Of a stretch of 64,000 nucleotides of DNA, positions 50,570-62,145 are shown piece by piece. The stretch is taken from contig NZ_JACNMJ010000004.1 of NCBI RefSeq assembly GCF_014526325.1, positions 62,001-126,000 on the forward strand, given 5' to 3'. A program made the position numbers and the translations under genes. Position 1 is the stretch's first letter; every line of letters starts with the position of its first letter. The stretch is from Psychroserpens algicola (GTDB lineage: Bacteria > Bacteroidota > Bacteroidia > Flavobacteriales > Flavobacteriaceae). Under the pieces are notes generated by a model. The model ran no database searches and was not told the origin of the DNA. It saw only the letters and a program-made list of their open reading frames with translations.

Positions 50570-50601
50570 TGTAGAGGTAAATTAATAGTATGTAGAGGTA
50601 A
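50570..50601 (+). promoter_or_regulatory. Direct repeat TGTAGAGGTAA, candidate regulator site
   Basis: The 11-base word occurs at 50570-50580 and 50591-50601, exactly 21 bases (two helix turns) apart. Its complement TTACCTCTACA differs at one base from TTACCACTACA at 53505-53515 upstream of susC, and at two from TTGCCTATACA at 53493-53503. Confidence 0.5.
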
Positions 50602-50628
50602 TAATCCACAAATAATGTTACCATACAA

Positions 50629-50663
50629 AAGTTGTATATTGTACTCAATTCATGATACAACTT
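50629..50663. promoter_or_regulatory. Inverted repeat at the regulator start
   Basis: AAGTTGTAT (50629-50637) and ATACAACTT (50655-50663) form a perfect 9-bp inverted repeat with a 17-base spacer, 4 bases before the regulator ATG. It could be an autoregulatory site or a leader hairpin. Confidence 0.4.
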
Positions 50664-50667
50664 ATAA

Positions 50668-53472
50668 ATGTTAGCATACCGAAACGTATTGGTTTTTCTT
50701 TTCTTTACAGTATTTAATCTTGTAATATCTCAGGAATTACCACCTATACAAAACTTTACCACAGAAGATTATGTTGCTGAAAATCAAAACTGGTCCATTA
50801 GTCAAGGTGACGATCAGTATATCTATGTAGCTAATAACTTAGGACTTTTAGAATATAATGGTGCTAAATGGCAATTGTATGAATCTCCCAATAAAACAGT
50901 TCTCAGGTCTATTGAAACGGTTGGTAATCGCATTTATACAGGAGGTTATATGGAGTTTGGATACTGGGAACGAAACAATCTCGGATCTCTTGAGTACACA
51001 TCTTTATCCCAAAAAATTGATGTTAGCCTTGTAGAAGATGAGCAATTTTGGAACATCATCGCATTAGATGGCTGGATTTTATTTCAGTCTTTAAATCGAA
51101 TTTATATTGTTAATTCTTCAGACTTATCAGTTAAAACAATCGATTCAGAAACAGAATTATCTAAAATGATCATTGCTGATGACGTCTATTTTCAGAAAAA
51201 AGGGATTGGATTATTTAGAATCGTTAATGGTAAAGCTGAAATAGTTTCTGATGATTCAATTCTAAAATCGAATACGATTGTTAATGCTTTTCGTCTTGAT
51301 GATATTTTTTTAATTCAAACACAAGAACGTGGTTTTTTTATTTTAAATGCTGAAGGATTACAACCATGGGATATTCCAGCAAATGAAGTGTTACTTAAAA
51401 CCAGTGTGTTTAGTAGCCTTAAACTTAAAAATGATTCGTTTGCCATCGGAACAATTTCTGAAGGTATTATTTTAATGACTCCTGAAGGAGAAATTAGTTA
51501 TACAATAAATCAAGTTAATGGTTTAATTAACAACACCGTTTTGTCAATTTATCAAGATAAAAATCAAAATATTTGGTTGGGTCTTGATAATGGTATCAGT
51601 TTTATAGACCTGACTTCTCCATATCATATATATAAAGATGTAAGTGGTAAATTAGGAACTGTATATGCATCTCTAGCCATTAATGGTACGCTCTATTTAG
51701 GAACTAATCAAGGATTGTTTTACAGAAAAAGAAATTCACTTGATGAATTTAAAATGATTAATGGAACTAACGGACAAGTTTGGGCTTTGAGTTATATAGA
51801 CGGGAAATTATTTTGTGGTCATAATAAAGGCACAATGGTTATCGAAAATTATAATGTTACGACTACGATTAGCGATGCCATAGGGACTTGGGGTTTTAAA
51901 CGTATTCCTAATACATCTCATTTAATTTTGCAAGGAAATTTTAACGGACTTAATGTCCTAGAAAAAAACAATGGTACTTGGACCTACAGAAATAAAATTG
52001 AAGGAATTGACATTTCCAGCCGGTTTTTTGAATTTGCAAATAATAAACTTTATGTAAATCATGAATTGAAAGGCCTCTACGAATTAAAAATTGATAGTAA
52101 TTACCAATACGTAGAAGATATTGCACGAATAGATGGTATTTATAATGGTGTAGGTTCTAATGCTCTAAAATACAACGGAGAATTAATTTATGTGTCCTCT
52201 GAAGGTGTGTTTAAACAATACGAAAACAAAAAGTTCAAGATTGATACTATGTTTTCGGCGTTGTTTAAACCCTTTAAAAGGTTAACTACAATGATGAATG
52301 TTAATGGTGAAGACAATTTGGTCTGGAGGTATGCCGATAATAATATTGCTTTTATTTCCTACGGAGACATGAGCGAAAAGCCTAATATTGAGTTGTTTCC
52401 AGTATCTAGTTCTATAACGAATGTTGTTTCAGGTTTTGAAAATGTAACAAAAATTGATAGCGATGAATATTTAGTGGGTGGATATAATGGTTACTTGCTC
52501 ATTAATGATAAAATCCCTGCACCAAAAAAAGAGTTTGATATGGTTATCAATAGTATTGAAGCTCATGAAATAGACCAGCCAAAAGACCGTTTAGATCCTG
52601 CAATTGAAGAGACTTTTAGTAACAAAAAAAATAATATAAGTTTTGATTACAGTTTTGCTAATTATGGAGAAATTATAGAAAATCAATATCAGTACCAGCT
52701 TTTAGGTCTGTCTGATAATTGGTCTGATTGGTCGGCAAACCCATCTCATAAATTTGAAAATTTGCCTTTCGGAACCTATACATTTAACGTGAGAGGCAAA
52801 GCAGGTAACACAGTAACAAAAAATATCGCATCCTATACATTTACTATTAAACGGCCGTTGTTGCTATCTAATTTGGCAATTGCATTATATATCTTATCTG
52901 TAGTAATCATACTATTGATCATTCACTATTATTATCGAAAATACTATAGAAATCAGCAACAAAAAGTTATTGAGAAGTCAAAACGAGAATTGGAAGTTAG
53001 AGAATTAGAAAATGCTCAAAAACTCATGGCCTTAAGAAATGAACAATTGCAACAAGACATAGATAATAAAAATAGAGAGTTGGCAATATCTACCATGAGC
53101 CTAATAAAAAAGAATGAGTTTTTAAATAGTATCAAAGATGAATTAAAGAATACTGAGCCTACAAAAGGCTTAAACCCAGTAATAAAAATTATTGATAAAA
53201 ATCTAAATAATACTGATGATTGGAAGTTTTTTGAAGAAGCTTTTAATAATGCAGATAAAGATTTTCTCAAAAAAGTTAAAGCGAAGCACTCTACTTTAAC
53301 ACCTAACGATTTAAAACTTTGTGCGTATCTCAGACTCAATTTATCGTCAAAAGAAATAGCACCTTTGCTTAATATTTCACCTAAAAGTGTAGAGGTTAAA
53401 CGTTATCGATTGAGAAAAAAAATGAACTTACCGCATGAATCTAGCTTAACAAATTATATTCTTGAAATTTAG
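50668..53472 (+). CDS. Membrane-spanning propeller/Y_Y_Y/LuxR regulator of the glucan locus
   Basis: A 934-residue one-component regulator. A signal (about 1-22) is followed by a periplasmic propeller of two-component-regulator type (D-K-N-Q-N-I-W-L-G-L-D-N-G-I), a Y_Y_Y domain (about 653-725; Y-Q-L-L-G-L-S-D-N-W-S-D-W), a transmembrane helix (about 733-757), a coiled coil (765-830) and a C-terminal LuxR-type helix-turn-helix (L-S-S-K-E-I-A-P-L-L-N-I-S-P-K-S-V-E-V-K-R-Y). There is no kinase, so ligand binding outside is passed straight to the DNA-binding end, as proposed for SusR. It stands immediately upstream of susC. Confidence 0.9.
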   Translation: MLAYRNVLVFLFFTVFNLVISQELPPIQNFTTEDYVAENQNWSISQGDDQYIYVANNLGLLEYNGAKWQLYESPNKTVLRSIETVGNRIYTGGYMEFGYWERNNLGSLEYTSLSQKIDVSLVEDEQFWNIIALDGWILFQSLNRIYIVNSSDLSVKTIDSETELSKMIIADDVYFQKKGIGLFRIVNGKAEIVSDDSILKSNTIVNAFRLDDIFLIQTQERGFFILNAEGLQPWDIPANEVLLKTSVFSSLKLKNDSFAIGTISEGIILMTPEGEISYTINQVNGLINNTVLSIYQDKNQNIWLGLDNGISFIDLTSPYHIYKDVSGKLGTVYASLAINGTLYLGTNQGLFYRKRNSLDEFKMINGTNGQVWALSYIDGKLFCGHNKGTMVIENYNVTTTISDAIGTWGFKRIPNTSHLILQGNFNGLNVLEKNNGTWTYRNKIEGIDISSRFFEFANNKLYVNHELKGLYELKIDSNYQYVEDIARIDGIYNGVGSNALKYNGELIYVSSEGVFKQYENKKFKIDTMFSALFKPFKRLTTMMNVNGEDNLVWRYADNNIAFISYGDMSEKPNIELFPVSSSITNVVSGFENVTKIDSDEYLVGGYNGYLLINDKIPAPKKEFDMVINSIEAHEIDQPKDRLDPAIEETFSNKKNNISFDYSFANYGEIIENQYQYQLLGLSDNWSDWSANPSHKFENLPFGTYTFNVRGKAGNTVTKNIASYTFTIKRPLLLSNLAIALYILSVVIILLIIHYYYRKYYRNQQQKVIEKSKRELEVRELENAQKLMALRNEQLQQDIDNKNRELAISTMSLIKKNEFLNSIKDELKNTEPTKGLNPVIKIIDKNLNNTDDWKFFEEAFNNADKDFLKKVKAKHSTLTPNDLKLCAYLRLNLSSKEIAPLLNISPKSVEVKRYRLRKKMNLPHESSLTNYILEI

Positions 53473-53475
53473 CAA

Positions 53476-53505
53476 CTATACATTTAACAATTTTGCCTAT
53501 ACATT
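53476..53505 (+). promoter_or_regulatory. Direct repeats upstream of susC, candidate regulator site
   Basis: CTATACATT occurs at 53476-53484 and 53497-53505, 21 bases apart, and CTACATT follows at 53510-53516. The spacing equals that of the repeats upstream of the regulator gene. Confidence 0.5.
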
Positions 53506-53518
53506 ACCACTACATTTG
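53492..53518 (+). promoter_or_regulatory. Putative susC operon promoter
   Basis: TTTG (53492-53495) and TACATTTG (53511-53518) match the -33 and -7 elements but are only 15 bases apart instead of 19-20. The -7 element overlaps the candidate regulator site, which fits activator dependence. It implies a leader of about 180 bases. Confidence 0.4.
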
Positions 53519-53709
53519 TACTATACGACATACTACAACGATGTAAATTGATATTTGATATAGGCTTGAATCCCTTTAAAAAACAGTCCTTTTTTGTTAA
53601 TTTTATATAATTTAGTGCAATTTATTGCGATGTATATTTTTTGTATGGGTATTTTTTATTGATTTCGTAAATAGATGTAATAAGTTTACACTATAACAAA
53701 CAAATCAAT

Positions 53710-56700
53710 ATGACAACAAAAATTTTTTCCTTAATCTTTTTAGTATTTACTTCTTTTGCATTTAGTCAGGAAGTTGATGTTAGAGGAACAGTAACAGATC
53801 AAGTCTCTGGCGAACCCTTGCCAGGTGTAAACATTCTTGTCAAAGGAACTTCTATTGGAGCTTACACAGATTTTGATGGTAATTTTGAAATTAAAAATAT
53901 CCAAGTAAATTCAGTTTTAGTTTTTACCTATGTAGGATTTAAAGACCAGGAAGTCATTGTTAAAAATGATGAACCACTTTCCGTTAGATTAATACAAGAT
54001 TCAGAGTCATTAGACGAGGTCGTTATTATTGGATATGGATCGCAACGAAAAGAATTAGTCACTGGAGCGTATTCAAGTATTGATGCAGAAAGTATCGTTG
54101 AAACTAATCCTACCAGAATTGAAGAAGCATTAAAAGGAAGCGCTGCTGGTGTTCAGGTTAATGCAAATTCTGGTTCTCCTGGTGCAGCTCTTAACATTCG
54201 AATTAGAGGTATTACTACCAATGGTGACAATTCACCGCTAGTAATTGTAGATGGTGTAAATATCGGAAACGATTTAAGTATTATTGACCCTAATGATATC
54301 GAAAAAATGGATATCATTAAAGATGCAAGTTCGGCAATTTATGGTGTACAAGGTGCAAATGGTGTTATTCTGATTACTACAAAATCGGGTAAGAAAAACC
54401 GAAAAACGAAATTCTCATACAATTCGTATTATACAATTCAGGAAGCCGACAATCAAATTGATTTGCTTAATAATTACGAATACGCAGTATATGTAAATGA
54501 AACCGAAGCGGCAGATGGTAATCCAATACCATATCCTAACCTTCAGAATATAGAAAACAATACCGATTGGCAAGACGAATTATTCGAACGTGCGCCAATG
54601 TTTAATCACAATCTGAGTATTACTGGTGGATCTGAAACGACATCCTACGGTTTTAGCGCAAGTTATTTTGCTCAGGATGGTGTTATCGCTAGTGATAAAT
54701 CTAATTATAAGCGATGGACGATTAAAAACAACTTGGGTGTAGATGTTACTGAAAAATTAAGGTTGAATACATTTTTACTGTATACCAATATTAGAAGTAA
54801 AGCAATTCCTGAAGGCGGAAGAGGTTCAGCGCTATATTATGCTTTAAACGCATCTCCATTAACTCCTGTATTTGATGATTCTACTCCTGCTAATATTTCA
54901 GGAGGTTATGCTTTTATCGGACAAGAGCAAGGAAATGAAATTATCAATCCACTAGCACTTATTAATAACACGTATAACGAAGGTTATGCAGATCGTTTTA
55001 CTGGTAAAGTAGAGTTAGAATATGATATTATTGATAACTTAAAAGCAACATCAAGGTTTAATTTTAATTATTCAGACTTTGGTGGACGATCGTATTTTCC
55101 TCTACAATACTACGGATTAGGAAAAGTGGTAAATAATGTACAGTTGGATGCTAACAACCCTGAAGCATTTGATCTCGATAGAAATGATGATGGTATCAGA
55201 GACTTGTATAGTACTGTGGCAGAAAACTCACAACATGCTTTCGATTATACTTGGGAAAATTTTGTTGATTACAGCAAAACGTTTAATGACAAACATAATT
55301 TCAACGTCTTATTAGGAACATCTATTAGAAGCGAAATTTATAAAGGATTTTTTGGTTCGGGACCTTTAAATAGCGGACCAGATACGTGGTCAAACGCTTA
55401 TTTAGGAAATACAAACTCTATCATTCAGGTTGTTGATGACGAGGTTACGTCAAGTTTAGTTACTGCTGCCGATGGTAGAAATGAAAACAGATGGTATTCT
55501 TTCTTCGGACGTATTCAGTATGATTACGAAGGAAAATATATATTATCAGCAATGGTTAGACGTGATGCTTCTACTAAATTCGGACCTAATAACAGAGTTG
55601 GTAACTTTCCATCGATTTCAGCAGGTTGGCTAGTGTCTAACGAAGAGTTTTTTGATGTAAATTTTATTAATAAACTTAAAGTTAGAGGAAGCTGGGGAAT
55701 CACTGGTAACGATAAAATAGGTAACTTTAGATGGTTAGGTCTTTTACAAGGAACTTCAGGCGAAGCTACTTATCCTTTTGATGATTTATTATCTTTTGGA
55801 AACGCTGTTGGTGCTTTAGCTAACCCAGATTTAAAATGGGAAACCAATACGCAAACAAATATTGGTGTTGACTTAGGTCTATTTGATAATAAGTTAAACT
55901 TAACGGTTGATTATTATAAGAAAACAACAGAAGATTTATTATTAGTTCCTGAGGTTTCAGGAATCTTAGGATCGACAGCTGGTGGTAGTTCAGCACCTTT
56001 TGTAAATGCTGGTACTATCGAAAATAAAGGTATTGATCTTAGTATCAATTACAGTCACGATTTTAATGAGGATTTTAATATTAGTGTGGGTTATACTCTT
56101 ACAAGTATTAAAAATAAAGCGCTTAAAGTTAATAATGCTGCAGGATTTATTCCTGGAGGTCTTTTCGGATTAAATCAAACGACATCACGATTCCAGACGG
56201 GATTGCCAATTGGTGTGTTCTACGGACTTAAGATGGATGGCATCTACCAGAATCAGGCAGAGATTGATGCGCTTAACACAGATACAAATAACGATGGTGT
56301 TATTGATGGATTGGATGCACCTTTTCAGGCGAATGCAAGTCCTGGAGATATACGATATGTTGATGTAGATGGTGATGGCGTTATTGAATACGGAAGTAGT
56401 GATGACCAGACAGTTATTGGTAATCCTATTCCAGATTATACGATGGGCTTTAATTTAAATATCAATTATAAAAGTATTGATTTCGGAACATCATTATATG
56501 CTTCAATAGGTAACGACATTGCACGTAGTTATGAACGATTTTTAACTTATAGTAATAAGCCAAACTTTTATTTAGATAGATGGACAGGTGAAGGGACTTC
56601 AAATACGGTACCTCGTGCATCAAATACGGCATCTAATAACTATTTGTTTTCATCATTCTTCGTTGAAGATGGTTCGTATTTAAGAATTCAAAATGTTCAG

Positions 56701-56910
56701 TTAGGCTACTCGCTACCTCAAGCGATATCAGAAAAATTAAACCTAGATAAATTTAGAATTTATGTCGCTGTAAATAACCTATACACATTTACAAAATATA
56801 GAGGATACAATCCAGATGTATCAAACGCCAGTCCGTTAGGAGCAGGTGTTGATCTTGGACAATATCCTCAAACAAGAACTTTTACAACAGGTATCAATGT
56901 TTCATTTTAA
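53710..56910 (+). CDS. SusC/RagA family TonB-dependent transporter
   Basis: The 1,066-residue outer-membrane transporter imports oligosaccharides with SusD. It has a Sec signal (ends F-S-Q), a carboxypeptidase-regulatory-like domain (about 24-100; G-V-N-I-L-V-K-G-T-S-I-G-A-Y-T-D-F-D-G), a plug with the family stretch Y-G-S-Q-R-K-E-L-V-T-G-A-Y-S-S, V-I-V-D-G-V and D-A-S-S-A-I-Y-G-V-Q-G-A-N-G-V-I-L-I-T-T, and a barrel of 22 strands ending F-T-T-G-I-N-V-S-F. It leads the SusCD operon. The gap to susD is 10 bases. Confidence 0.96.
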   Translation: MTTKIFSLIFLVFTSFAFSQEVDVRGTVTDQVSGEPLPGVNILVKGTSIGAYTDFDGNFEIKNIQVNSVLVFTYVGFKDQEVIVKNDEPLSVRLIQDSESLDEVVIIGYGSQRKELVTGAYSSIDAESIVETNPTRIEEALKGSAAGVQVNANSGSPGAALNIRIRGITTNGDNSPLVIVDGVNIGNDLSIIDPNDIEKMDIIKDASSAIYGVQGANGVILITTKSGKKNRKTKFSYNSYYTIQEADNQIDLLNNYEYAVYVNETEAADGNPIPYPNLQNIENNTDWQDELFERAPMFNHNLSITGGSETTSYGFSASYFAQDGVIASDKSNYKRWTIKNNLGVDVTEKLRLNTFLLYTNIRSKAIPEGGRGSALYYALNASPLTPVFDDSTPANISGGYAFIGQEQGNEIINPLALINNTYNEGYADRFTGKVELEYDIIDNLKATSRFNFNYSDFGGRSYFPLQYYGLGKVVNNVQLDANNPEAFDLDRNDDGIRDLYSTVAENSQHAFDYTWENFVDYSKTFNDKHNFNVLLGTSIRSEIYKGFFGSGPLNSGPDTWSNAYLGNTNSIIQVVDDEVTSSLVTAADGRNENRWYSFFGRIQYDYEGKYILSAMVRRDASTKFGPNNRVGNFPSISAGWLVSNEEFFDVNFINKLKVRGSWGITGNDKIGNFRWLGLLQGTSGEATYPFDDLLSFGNAVGALANPDLKWETNTQTNIGVDLGLFDNKLNLTVDYYKKTTEDLLLVPEVSGILGSTAGGSSAPFVNAGTIENKGIDLSINYSHDFNEDFNISVGYTLTSIKNKALKVNNAAGFIPGGLFGLNQTTSRFQTGLPIGVFYGLKMDGIYQNQAEIDALNTDTNNDGVIDGLDAPFQANASPGDIRYVDVDGDGVIEYGSSDDQTVIGNPIPDYTMGFNLNINYKSIDFGTSLYASIGNDIARSYERFLTYSNKPNFYLDRWTGEGTSNTVPRASNTASNNYLFSSFFVEDGSYLRIQNVQLGYSLPQAISEKLNLDKFRIYVAVNNLYTFTKYRGYNPDVSNASPLGAGVDLGQYPQTRTFTTGINVSF

Positions 56911-56920
56911 TTTAAGACAC

Positions 56921-58378
56921 ATGAGTATTAAAAAAATAACAGCTTTCGTATTAATCTTGGCTTGCATGTCATGCGAAGATTATTTAGAGATATTGCCGGA
57001 AGGCCAGGAAAATACTGAGAATTATTTCAATTCACAGTCAGATTATGAAGACGCACTTGTAGGTGTTTATGATTTATTATCAACAACCTATCTTCATAAT
57101 TTATTGGGAGAAATCGCATCTGATAACAGTTTATGTGGTGGAGAATCTCCAACAGACGTTCTAGATTGGCAGCAAATTGATGATATGACGCACACTCCTG
57201 ATAATGGTGCGTTGCGTAGTGTTTTTCAATTTATGTATGCCGGAATTAGTCGTGCTAATTATATAGTAGAATTTCAAGATAAGACCGATTTTGAAGGCAA
57301 AGACCAGATTCTTGCTGAAAACTTATTTTTAAGATCTTACTATTACTTCGAATTGGTGAAGTTTTTTGGAGATGTACCGCTTTATACTGAAAGTAGAATT
57401 AGTATAGAAGGATCACAATCAATTGATAGAACACCTAAAGCAGAGGTTTATGCTCAGCTTGAAGCAGACTTGCAAACTGCTATTGATAATCTTCCATGGC
57501 AACAAGGTCAGAGTGGAAGAGCAACCAAAGGAGCTGCATTGGCATTGTTAGGAAAAATTTATTTATACCAGGATAAGTTTGAGGAAGCAGCCATAACGCT
57601 TGATCAAGTAATCAATTCTGGACAGTATCAGTTGGTTGAAGACTTCGGAACTATCTTTTTAAATTCTAATGAAAACAATATAGAATCTGTTTTCGAAATA
57701 CAATATTTCGGAGGAGAAGGTGGAGGTTTCGATTGTTTCCAATGTGTTGAAGGGAACATAGCCGTTGGATTCATGGGACCTAGATTTACAGGTGGAAACT
57801 TTTCACCATTTACATCTGGTTTTAGTTTTAACCCTCCAACTGAAGAGCTATATAATGCCTATGCTACGAATGATGAAAGACGCGATGCTACCATATTAAA
57901 TATGGACGAATTTGTAGCTGAAAGACCAGACGTCACATTTAATTTGGGGAATACTATAGATTATACAGGATACTATAACAAAAAATACATTCCATATGCT
58001 GAAGCTAATTCAGGTGATGTCAATCTTACGCATAGTAATAATTACCGAGCGATAAGATATTCAGACGTGTTATTAATGGCAGCCGAAGCATTCAATAGAG
58101 GAGGAATTAATGATATTAAAGCAAGAAATTATGTTAATCTGGTAAGAGTTAGAGCTGGACTAGATGAGATTCAAACATCTGGCGCTAATTTAACTCAAGA
58201 TATATATAGTGAAAGACGATTAGAATTAGCTGGTGAAGGTCATCGGTTTTTCGACCAGGTGAGAACAGGGCAAACGAATTCTATACCAAATTTTTCACCG
58301 AAAAATGTGCTGTTTCCTATTCCTAGAATAGAAATTGAATTAGCAGGTAATCGTTGGGAACAAAACGCAGGATATTAA
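56921..58378 (+). CDS. SusD/RagB family glycan-binding lipoprotein
   Basis: A 485-residue surface lipoprotein (lipobox L-A-C-M-S-C) that caps SusC and binds the incoming glycan. Family marks are C-E-D-Y-L-E, F-L-R-S-Y-Y-Y-F-E-L-V-K-F-F-G-D-V-P-L, K-G-A-A-L-A-L-L-G-K-I-Y-L-Y and the R-Y-S-D-V-L-L-M-A-A-E-A ... F-P-I-P-R-I-E motifs, with TPR helices between. The frame opens at 56,846 inside susC, but the ATG at 56,921 gives the lipoprotein signal. Confidence 0.95.
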   Translation: MSIKKITAFVLILACMSCEDYLEILPEGQENTENYFNSQSDYEDALVGVYDLLSTTYLHNLLGEIASDNSLCGGESPTDVLDWQQIDDMTHTPDNGALRSVFQFMYAGISRANYIVEFQDKTDFEGKDQILAENLFLRSYYYFELVKFFGDVPLYTESRISIEGSQSIDRTPKAEVYAQLEADLQTAIDNLPWQQGQSGRATKGAALALLGKIYLYQDKFEEAAITLDQVINSGQYQLVEDFGTIFLNSNENNIESVFEIQYFGGEGGGFDCFQCVEGNIAVGFMGPRFTGGNFSPFTSGFSFNPPTEELYNAYATNDERRDATILNMDEFVAERPDVTFNLGNTIDYTGYYNKKYIPYAEANSGDVNLTHSNNYRAIRYSDVLLMAAEAFNRGGINDIKARNYVNLVRVRAGLDEIQTSGANLTQDIYSERRLELAGEGHRFFDQVRTGQTNSIPNFSPKNVLFPIPRIEIELAGNRWEQNAGY

Positions 58379-60489: not shown

Positions 60490-62145
60490 ATGAAAAATCT
60501 TATTAAAATAACAGTATTGATGCTTACAATGGCATGCTTTGTCAATTGTGAAGATGATGACGCTACAGTCGGTGATTTAATTGCTCCAACTAACTTGACA
60601 ATAACTGCCGAGGTAATTGGTGTTGATGCCGATAATCCTAATGGTGACGGAAGTGGTTTTGTAAAACTAACGGCTAGTGCTGATAATGCATTGAGCTATA
60701 ATTTTCAATTTGGTGATGGTCTAGAAGCTGTTGTACCATCTGGTGTAAATACACACCGTTATAGTTTGGTTGGATTAAATACTTATACTGTAGTGGTTAG
60801 CGCAGTTGGTACTGGAGGCGTTTCTACTACTGGAACAATAGAGGTTGAAGTTTTTAGTTCTTTTGATGATATTGAAGCAAAAGAATTGTTAAGTGGAGGT
60901 ATCGGATCTTCAAAGACATGGTATTTAGATGCAGCTTCACTAGGACACTTAGGTGTTGGCGGTAATGTTGATATTGCTGCCGATGCATTTTGGTTTCCTT
61001 CATTTTATGCTGCTCAGCCTTTTGAAAAATGTGGAATCCCAATTTCAGATTGCTTGTGTACAGACGAATTCATCTTTAGTCTCGATGCTAGTGAGCAACT
61101 TACGTTTGAGTTGAATAACAACGGACAAACATTTTTTAATGCTAGTCATCAGGGAGTAATTGGTGAAAATGCTGGTGAAGATGCTTGCTTTGACTTTGAT
61201 ACGTCTGGTGTGAGTCTCGTATCTCTGGCGCCTTCTTCATTCGATTGGTCATTAGTACCAGATCCAGATTTTAATGCAAGAGCGACTACAATGAATTTTT
61301 CCGATGATAAATTCATGGGATATTATGTAGGATCATCGTCTTATGATATTATTTCAGTGACAAATACGACATTGTATGTGAGAACAGTTGACGCCTTAAA
61401 TCCTGTTCTGTATTGGTACCACCGATTTACAACAACACCTCCAAATGAAGAATTTAATTCTATTTACAATACTTTAATTTGGTCTGACGATTTTGATACT
61501 AATGGTGCGCCAGATGCTGCAAACTGGACTTACGATCTTGGTGCAGGAGGCTGGGGAAATGGAGAAGTGCAAACCTATACCAATACTGCTGAAAATGTTA
61601 TCGTTGAAGACGGATTTTTAAAAATTACTGCAAAAGCAGATGGCAGTGGATACACTTCAGCGCGTTTGAAATCTGAAAACTTATTCGAATTTACTTATGG
61701 TAGGGTAGAAGTTAGAGCAAAGCTACCTGCTTCTATCGGAACCTGGCCAGCTATATGGATGCTTGGAGCAGACTACGATACAAACACATGGCCTGCTTGT
61801 GGTGAAATTGATATCATGGAACAAACAGGTCAAGATAAAAATAGAGTTTTAGCTACCGTTCACCATCCTGCGGTTTCACCAGGAGCTGGTGACGGATCTG
61901 ATACAATACTAACCACGTCTACTACTGAATTCCATAACTATACTGTAGAATGGACACCAGATACCATTACTTTTTTAGTAGATGATACAGTATACCACAC
62001 TGTTGCTAATTCACTGGATTTACCTTTTGAAAGTGATTTCTTCTTAATTCTAAATATTGCTATGGGAGGAACTTTAGGAGGAGATATTGATCCGGCTTTT
62101 ACAGAAGATAGTATGGAAATTGATTATGTGAGAGTATATCAATAA
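60490..62145 (+). CDS. GH16 endo-beta-1,3-glucanase (laminarinase) lipoprotein
   Basis: The 551-residue lipoprotein (signal to V-N-C) has a PKD-like domain (about 30-125), a beta-rich accessory domain with four Cys (about 130-315) and a C-terminal GH16 catalytic domain (about 325-551). The catalytic stretch G-E-I-D-I-M-E gives E439 as nucleophile and E444 as acid/base; W-P-A-I-W-M-L-G before it and L-N-I-A-M-G-G after it are typical of laminarinases (GH16_3). It cuts beta-1,3-glucan on the cell surface before SusCD import. It lies 12 bases after the surface lipoprotein gene. Confidence 0.93.
   Translation: MKNLIKITVLMLTMACFVNCEDDDATVGDLIAPTNLTITAEVIGVDADNPNGDGSGFVKLTASADNALSYNFQFGDGLEAVVPSGVNTHRYSLVGLNTYTVVVSAVGTGGVSTTGTIEVEVFSSFDDIEAKELLSGGIGSSKTWYLDAASLGHLGVGGNVDIAADAFWFPSFYAAQPFEKCGIPISDCLCTDEFIFSLDASEQLTFELNNNGQTFFNASHQGVIGENAGEDACFDFDTSGVSLVSLAPSSFDWSLVPDPDFNARATTMNFSDDKFMGYYVGSSSYDIISVTNTTLYVRTVDALNPVLYWYHRFTTTPPNEEFNSIYNTLIWSDDFDTNGAPDAANWTYDLGAGGWGNGEVQTYTNTAENVIVEDGFLKITAKADGSGYTSARLKSENLFEFTYGRVEVRAKLPASIGTWPAIWMLGADYDTNTWPACGEIDIMEQTGQDKNRVLATVHHPAVSPGAGDGSDTILTTSTTEFHNYTVEWTPDTITFLVDDTVYHTVANSLDLPFESDFFLILNIAMGGTLGGDIDPAFTEDSMEIDYVRVYQ

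Follow-up and report, generated by a model that had tools for sequence, protein, structure and literature searches.

A predicted operator of head-to-tail 11-bp sites for a membrane-bound LuxR-type regulator at a laminarin-type locus of Psychroserpens algicola

Results

Genes and features of the locus

Algal polysaccharides such as laminarin are degraded in large part by marine Flavobacteriia. The window analysed here, a 64,000-nucleotide stretch of the 3.8 Mb genome of Psychroserpens algicola, contains a regulator gene followed by susC, susD, a gene for a PKD protein and a GH16 gene, as assigned by Pfam (Table 1). Beyond the window come a 1159-aa protein without a Pfam match, a GH17 enzyme, a GH2-type barrel, a GH30 enzyme, a sugar transporter and a second GH17 enzyme. 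A susC/susD pair is thus joined to β-glucanases of families GH16, GH17 and GH30, as in a polysaccharide utilisation locus, and from these three families we infer a substrate of the laminarin/β-1,3-glucan type. The true start of the susD-like gene probably lies further in than the listed GTG.

The C terminus of the regulator matches GerE (PF00196) over residues 877–928 with 27.2 bits against a cut-off of 23.5, and the recognition helix of this helix-turn-helix (HTH) domain is ISPKSVEVKRYRLRKK. Its sensor part gives Reg_prop and Y_Y_Y matches in Pfam. No histidine kinase, receiver, AraC or autoinducer domain was present among the Pfam matches with E up to 0.001, and an NCBIfam search returned no match above cut-off. 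In the structural model (mean pLDDT 83), a long helix spanning residues 735–828 joins the sensor to the HTH, with pLDDT below 50 over most of the stretch 781–816; this helix would comprise a membrane span and a coiled coil. Among solved structures, the nearest folds belong to periplasmic sensors from three Bacteroides hybrid two-component systems (HTCS), BT4663, BT3049 and BT4673.

Table 1. Positions of genes and sequence elements in the window
Feature	Position	Strand	Basis or remark
Half-site TGTAGAGGTAA	50570..50580	-	Before regulator gene
Half-site TGTAGAGGTAA	50591..50601	-	Before regulator gene, 44 nt ahead of -7 box
Forward half-site CCATACA in regulator core promoter	50621..50627	+	14 nt ahead of -7 box
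Likely regulator -7 box TATATTGT	50635..50642	+	Fits TAnnTTGY variant given in a passage of PMC9723704
Regulator, 934 aa	50668..53472	+	Reg_prop propellers, Y_Y_Y, long helix, GerE HTH 877–928; Pfam, model, fold search
Distal half-site 1 (CTATACA 53476–53482)	53474..53484	+	Sequence; lags 21 and 32 conserved in K class
Distal half-site 2, 11-bp unit (CTATACA 53497–53503)	53495..53505	+	Sequence, conservation
Distal half-site 3, 11-bp unit (CACTACA 53508–53514)	53506..53516	+	Sequence, conservation
Palindrome CTACAACGATGTAA	53533..53546	none	Sequence comparison
Promoter-proximal tandem GATGTATATTTTTTGTATGGG, two reverse half-sites 11 bp apart	53629..53649	-	Sequence comparison
Likely susC promoter: TTG 53659–53661, N19, TAAGTTTA 53681–53688	53659..53688	+	Conservation; -7 consensus
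susC-like TonB-dependent receptor, first gene of target operon	53710..56910	+	Pfam
susD-like gene	56846..58378	+	ORF counted from GTG
GH16 glucanase	60490..62145	+	Pfam

Repeats on both sides of the regulator gene

A first-pass annotation of this DNA had reported that TGTAGAGGTAA is repeated 21 bases apart before the regulator, and the window indeed holds exactly two copies, at 50570 and 50591. On the susC side, CTATACA, CTATACA and CACTACA stand at 0, +21 and +32, beginning right after the regulator stop codon. Here the reported 21-base repetition of CTATACATT was recovered at 53476 and 53497 and TTGCCTATACA at 53493–53503; TTACCACTACA is also present, at 53504–53514, one base away from the 53505–53515 given for it. 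Two more copies of CTATACATT fall within the regulator gene (52776 and 52833).

Within the window, 2000 dinucleotide shuffles give P = 0.017 for the exact 11-base repeat upstream of the regulator (156 nt) and P = 0.256 for the 9-base repeat upstream of susC (237 nt), the latter not significant by itself. The first-pass annotation had singled out the equal spacing at the two places; shuffles in which both regions have a run of at least 9 at one and the same spacing are rare (P = 0.001).

The tandem is conserved and its shared unit is 11 bp

The decisive evidence for the repeats is conservation rather than within-window statistics. We searched with the tandem pattern AC-nnnnn-CATT-AC-nnnnn-CA, calling a site good when at least 8 of the 10 flank letters agreed, in 121 non-redundant representatives sharing less than 85% identity over the last 350 residues. 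Orthologous loci, to which the first-pass annotation had pointed as the place where its reading could fail, keep the tandem: a good one follows the stop codon in 96 of 121 representatives, as against 245 of 2420 shuffles, 2 of 121 downstream controls and 1 of 121 coding controls. A reversed-sequence control was useless because the flank pattern is mirror-symmetric, and the shuffle, downstream and coding controls were used instead. Most relatives listed carry CTATACA -21- CTATACATTACC -11- CTATACA, or variants of it, immediately after the regulator stop codon; 16 of 101 susC-linked loci are without a good site.

Regulators were classed by X and N in the helix motif [SG][VIL][ED]XNR. Class I has K/R at N and any residue except T at X, class B has K/R at N and T at X, class II has H/Q at N and T at X, and class III has H/Q at N and any residue except T at X. 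Left out of the locus tables were L046–L050 (not regulator loci), L157 (our own locus repeated) and L123 (without the HTH).

Lag spectra of 29 close relatives, our own locus among them, have their peaks at 11, 21 and 32 (z 9.2, 11.0 and 8.8; next 34, z 4.3), and the sole peak in 16 more distant relatives is at 11 (z 7.8). Lag 11 reaches z 13.6 in both HTH classes (89 K, 28 H/Q), and lags 21 and 32 are restricted to the K class (z 8.3 and 13.8); all these scores are inflated by shared ancestry, which alone takes coding controls to |z| of up to about 6, and the downstream stretch gives z 3.3 at lag 11. Since the lag-11 peak is common to both HTH classes, the shared unit is 11 bp. Hence 21 bp, which had been put forward as the defining spacing, is, together with 32, an extra spacing added in the K class.

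A reverse tandem stands ahead of the likely susC promoter

About 135 bp downstream of the distal element lies a GATGTATGTTTTTTGTA-type sequence composed of two reverse half-sites with an 11 bp step. The distance between the distal and proximal elements is 134–138 bp in 50 of 85 class-I loci. In raw counts for class I, where 64 of 106 representatives were measurable, a TA..TT box occurs exactly 50 nt past the proximal element in 46 of the 64 and at any other offset in no more than 6 loci; 15 of the 64 have none. The corresponding raw count for class II is 6 of 13 at 50 nt, and 5 of the 6 class III loci measured have no -7 match. A passage of PMC9723704 gives the -7 consensus of Flavobacterium psychrophilum as TAnnTTTG, with a variant TAnnTTGY. 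In the window, TAAGTTTA is one letter off the TAnnTTTG box, and TTG-N19-TAAGTTTA is the likely susC promoter.

This placement differs from that of the first-pass annotation, in which the distal sites themselves overlapped a promoter with a short spacer. The TACATTTG at 53511–53518 is a literal TAnnTTTG, yet the same octamer recurs in 4 of the 30 loci L001–L030, and any TAnnTTTG within the first 75 nt in 9 of 153 representatives. With a reverse tandem directly ahead of the promoter in Table 1, the earlier placement is therefore probably wrong. Helical phasing of the distal against the proximal element looked suggestive in class counts, but no 10.5-bp period appears once only distinct distances are counted (R 0.15; best fit about 12), so that DNA looping is unsupported. 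In the class II loci L034–L037, an extra TACGTC half-site lies between the two elements.

The palindrome CTACAACGATGTAA is probably a site for another protein. A palindrome near TACAACGTTGTA, which in the window begins 38 nt past the start of the distal tandem, is found in 21 of 106 class I and 5 of 16 class II representatives and in 0 of 28 from the other two classes, with coding controls at 0 except for 4 of 14 in class III. Copies with up to 2 mismatches in the same genome (L191–L194) lie near a divergent fbp-like/GNAT pair, before pyruvate kinase and before a GH31-like gene, these names being read from translations. Such neighbours suggest a central-carbon regulator, but the whole-genome count (14) is lower than that of the control (41).

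Site letters co-vary with the recognition helix

The co-variation set comprised 153 representatives, 120 of them with a good site; the 33 scoring below 8 lie outside the counts of 22 and 98 that follow. When X is T, interior letter 4 is G in unit 1 of 21/22 good sites and in unit 2 of 16/22, as against 0/98 when X is not T. Interior letter 5 is A in both units in 99/100 loci with K/R at N, and T in unit 1 (20/20) and unit 2 (17/20) with H/Q. The T-G rule was first noted on two VETK loci. Twelve further VETK/VETR loci, which need at most one origin on an HTH-free tree, supplied 10 good sites, 9 of them with G; the exceptions are L167, with a good site lacking G, and L170 and L171, without a good site.

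The proximal element is divided along the same classes. TGACGTA occurs there in 13/16 class II, 1/106 class I and 0/31 other representatives, TTCGTTTT in 9/14 class B and 0/139 others, and GTATRTTTWTTGTW in 67/106 class I and 0/47 others; TGATGTA is less exclusive (8/14 class III, also 10/106 class I). A FastTree phylogeny from which the HTH had been left out calls for two origins of X=T and a single K/H switch, as against 5 changes of the site letter G and 8 of T at interior letter 5. With so few changes in the helix residues, the co-variation cannot reach significance by independent pairs, and it reads as a pattern of a few large clades, not of many independent events. Two metagenome-assembled genomes labelled Cyclobacteriaceae (L081, L090) also have class-I regulators followed by similar repeats, possibly through transfer or a binning error.

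The helix aligns to ISPRTVEVHR of FixJ (E 0.0035), placing X at the V of TVEVHR; ComA was also a weak match in this comparison. The NarL residue matching X, V189, presumably contacts bases.

Half-sites at the regulator's own promoter

Self-control of the regulator, the other proposal of the first-pass annotation, is plausible as a lineage-restricted trait. Half-sites 11, 21 or 32 apart occur within 200 nt upstream of the regulator's own gene in 13 of 106 class-I representatives, with shuffle means of at most 0.1 at each lag (103 class-I representatives with enough upstream sequence); for 3 of these 13, the distance from the pair to the start codon exceeds 130 nt. The layout of a reverse half-site 43–45 nt and a forward half-site 13–14 nt before a TA[TC]AT[TC]G box recurs in 9/42 loci, or 8/34 distinct upstream sequences as against 0/2100 shuffles, the box and the distances having been picked after viewing the sequences. 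Among all class-I representatives this layout is found in 8 of 106, and these counts of 13 and 8 rule out autoregulatory sites as a general feature. The reverse half-site, oriented and placed nearly as in the susC proximal element, would fit activation, and the forward half-site inside the regulator core promoter would fit repression.

The distal element has a single match in its genome and probably belongs to the downstream promoter

Could the repeats be sites of another, global transcription factor, such as a catabolite regulator? The separate conserved palindrome indicates that other proteins may act in the region. A global factor is nevertheless improbable, because in the distal and the proximal element alike the letters of the half-sites change with the HTH of the regulator next to them, and because the sites are hardly repeated elsewhere. 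A genome search for the distal tandem that allowed up to 3 mismatches recovered a single match, the exact copy here; a backward control pattern has 7, so that only the exact match counts. For the proximal element the search recovered, besides the exact match, one weak copy at 3 mismatches, with none for the control.

The start of the element directly after the regulator stop codon is what one would expect if it acted in RNA, as a leader, attenuator or terminator of the regulator transcript. We consider this very unlikely. Folding of the single sequence is not unusual (z -0.78 and -0.26 for the susC-side stretches, -1.64 on the regulator side), and a good site is absent from L068, L124 and L101 (scores 6, 6 and 6), three loci whose next long ORF faces the opposite way. 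The next gene was inspected in 19 chosen loci. The 14 with a good site all have their next gene on the same strand; it encodes a TonB receptor in 3 of them, a secreted protein of about 1050 aa in 10 and, by reading, a PKD-like protein in 1. These 14 were taken from loci without the susC signature, which overlooks real receptors (L006, L078, L097). Two loci with a forward gene, L130 and L107, have no good site (scores 5 and 7). The most likely home of the element is therefore the downstream promoter and not the regulator 3' end. Linkage to susC by the TonB signature is weak (P 0.035), because real receptors escape the signature and the sites also precede forward genes of other kinds. The secreted protein of about 1050 aa replaces susC after the regulator, with the predicted operator kept, in L058, L061, L069, L072, L084, L086, L091, L100, L106 and L120.

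Taken alone, the 9-base susC repeat would agree with short words recurring by chance in AT-rich DNA, but for a tandem conserved at the frequency given above when controls stay at 1–10% this explanation is scarcely credible.

Discussion

Conservation together with recognition-helix co-variation makes a binding site of the regulator the best reading of the repeats. We regard it as highly probable that they serve the regulator encoded next to them, a membrane-bound LuxR-type protein of a laminarin-type locus, as an operator built of head-to-tail 11-bp sites. From weak single-window evidence that annotation appears to have picked out a real operator; its assignment to the regulator holds, and its 21-bp rule and its promoter need correction.

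In the mechanism we propose, the sensor half of the regulator would lie in the periplasm and the HTH in the cytoplasm, where it would bind head-to-tail 11-bp units AC-nnnnn-CATT. One predicted tandem, with a third half-site 21 bp upstream, is situated just past the regulator stop codon, and a second, in the opposite orientation, directly upstream of the putative susC promoter. An outside ligand would presumably cause the regulator to occupy both tandems, perhaps with contact between the two elements, and to recruit RNA polymerase and so activate transcription. The same half-sites at the regulator's own promoter in this lineage may serve self-control, as activation or as repression.

Direct-repeat sites have been predicted in Bacteroides for HTCS and SusR-like regulators by Ravcheev and co-workers. 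HTCS combine histidine kinase, receiver and AraC domains. A passage of PMC3878776 describes predicted direct repeats with an average spacing of 21 bp for HTCS regulators of susC/susD-linked loci, and predicted direct-repeat sites with a spacing of 67 or 77 bp for SusR-like regulators. The present regulator shares with HTCS the periplasmic sensor fold and direct repeats near susC/susD-linked loci; whereas HTCS place an AraC-type DNA-binding domain behind a phosphorelay, the protein here carries one LuxR-type HTH, and its predicted operator has an 11-bp unit with a second tandem reversed at the likely promoter. SusR-like regulators are likewise membrane-anchored regulators of polysaccharide loci with predicted direct-repeat sites; among lags scanned up to 45, the spacings here are 11 (21 and 32).

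In its mode of recognition the predicted operator would work like the direct-repeat site of ComA from Bacillus subtilis, without being a member of that group. According to a passage of PMC4797271, ComA binds a hexamer-5nt-hexamer direct repeat, and one added turn abolishes binding within the range tested; the HTH is of the same superfamily and its tandem elements have an 11-bp step (PMC4797271). Unlike the regulator described here, ComA is soluble, also binds an inverted repeat and has another half-site. Membership of the wider NarL/FixJ/LuxR HTH group is indicated by the GerE match and by the alignment of the recognition helix to FixJ, although here no receiver or autoinducer domain was found and the HTH is fused to a propeller sensor via the long helix.

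A 2026 paper (PMC13188888) reports LuxR as the first gene of many such clusters, in a passage that names no binding site. Two other papers were set aside: PMC12125979 concerns Vibrio XylR, and the text of PMC10766802 contains neither LuxR nor SusR. In the open literature, with subscription papers mostly outside the search, we found no described operator for LuxR-type locus regulators of marine Flavobacteriia.

On balance, we lean towards a code in which helix residues 910 and 911 would set two letters of the 11-bp unit, the distal and the reversed proximal copies would evolve together, and regulator–target pairs would be predictable across many marine polysaccharide loci. If such a code is true, V910T would shift the preference to ACCACGACATT and K911H to ACTACGTCATT. 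Given a conserved operator that tracks the helix reading it, targets, promoters and the specificity of regulators could be predicted directly.
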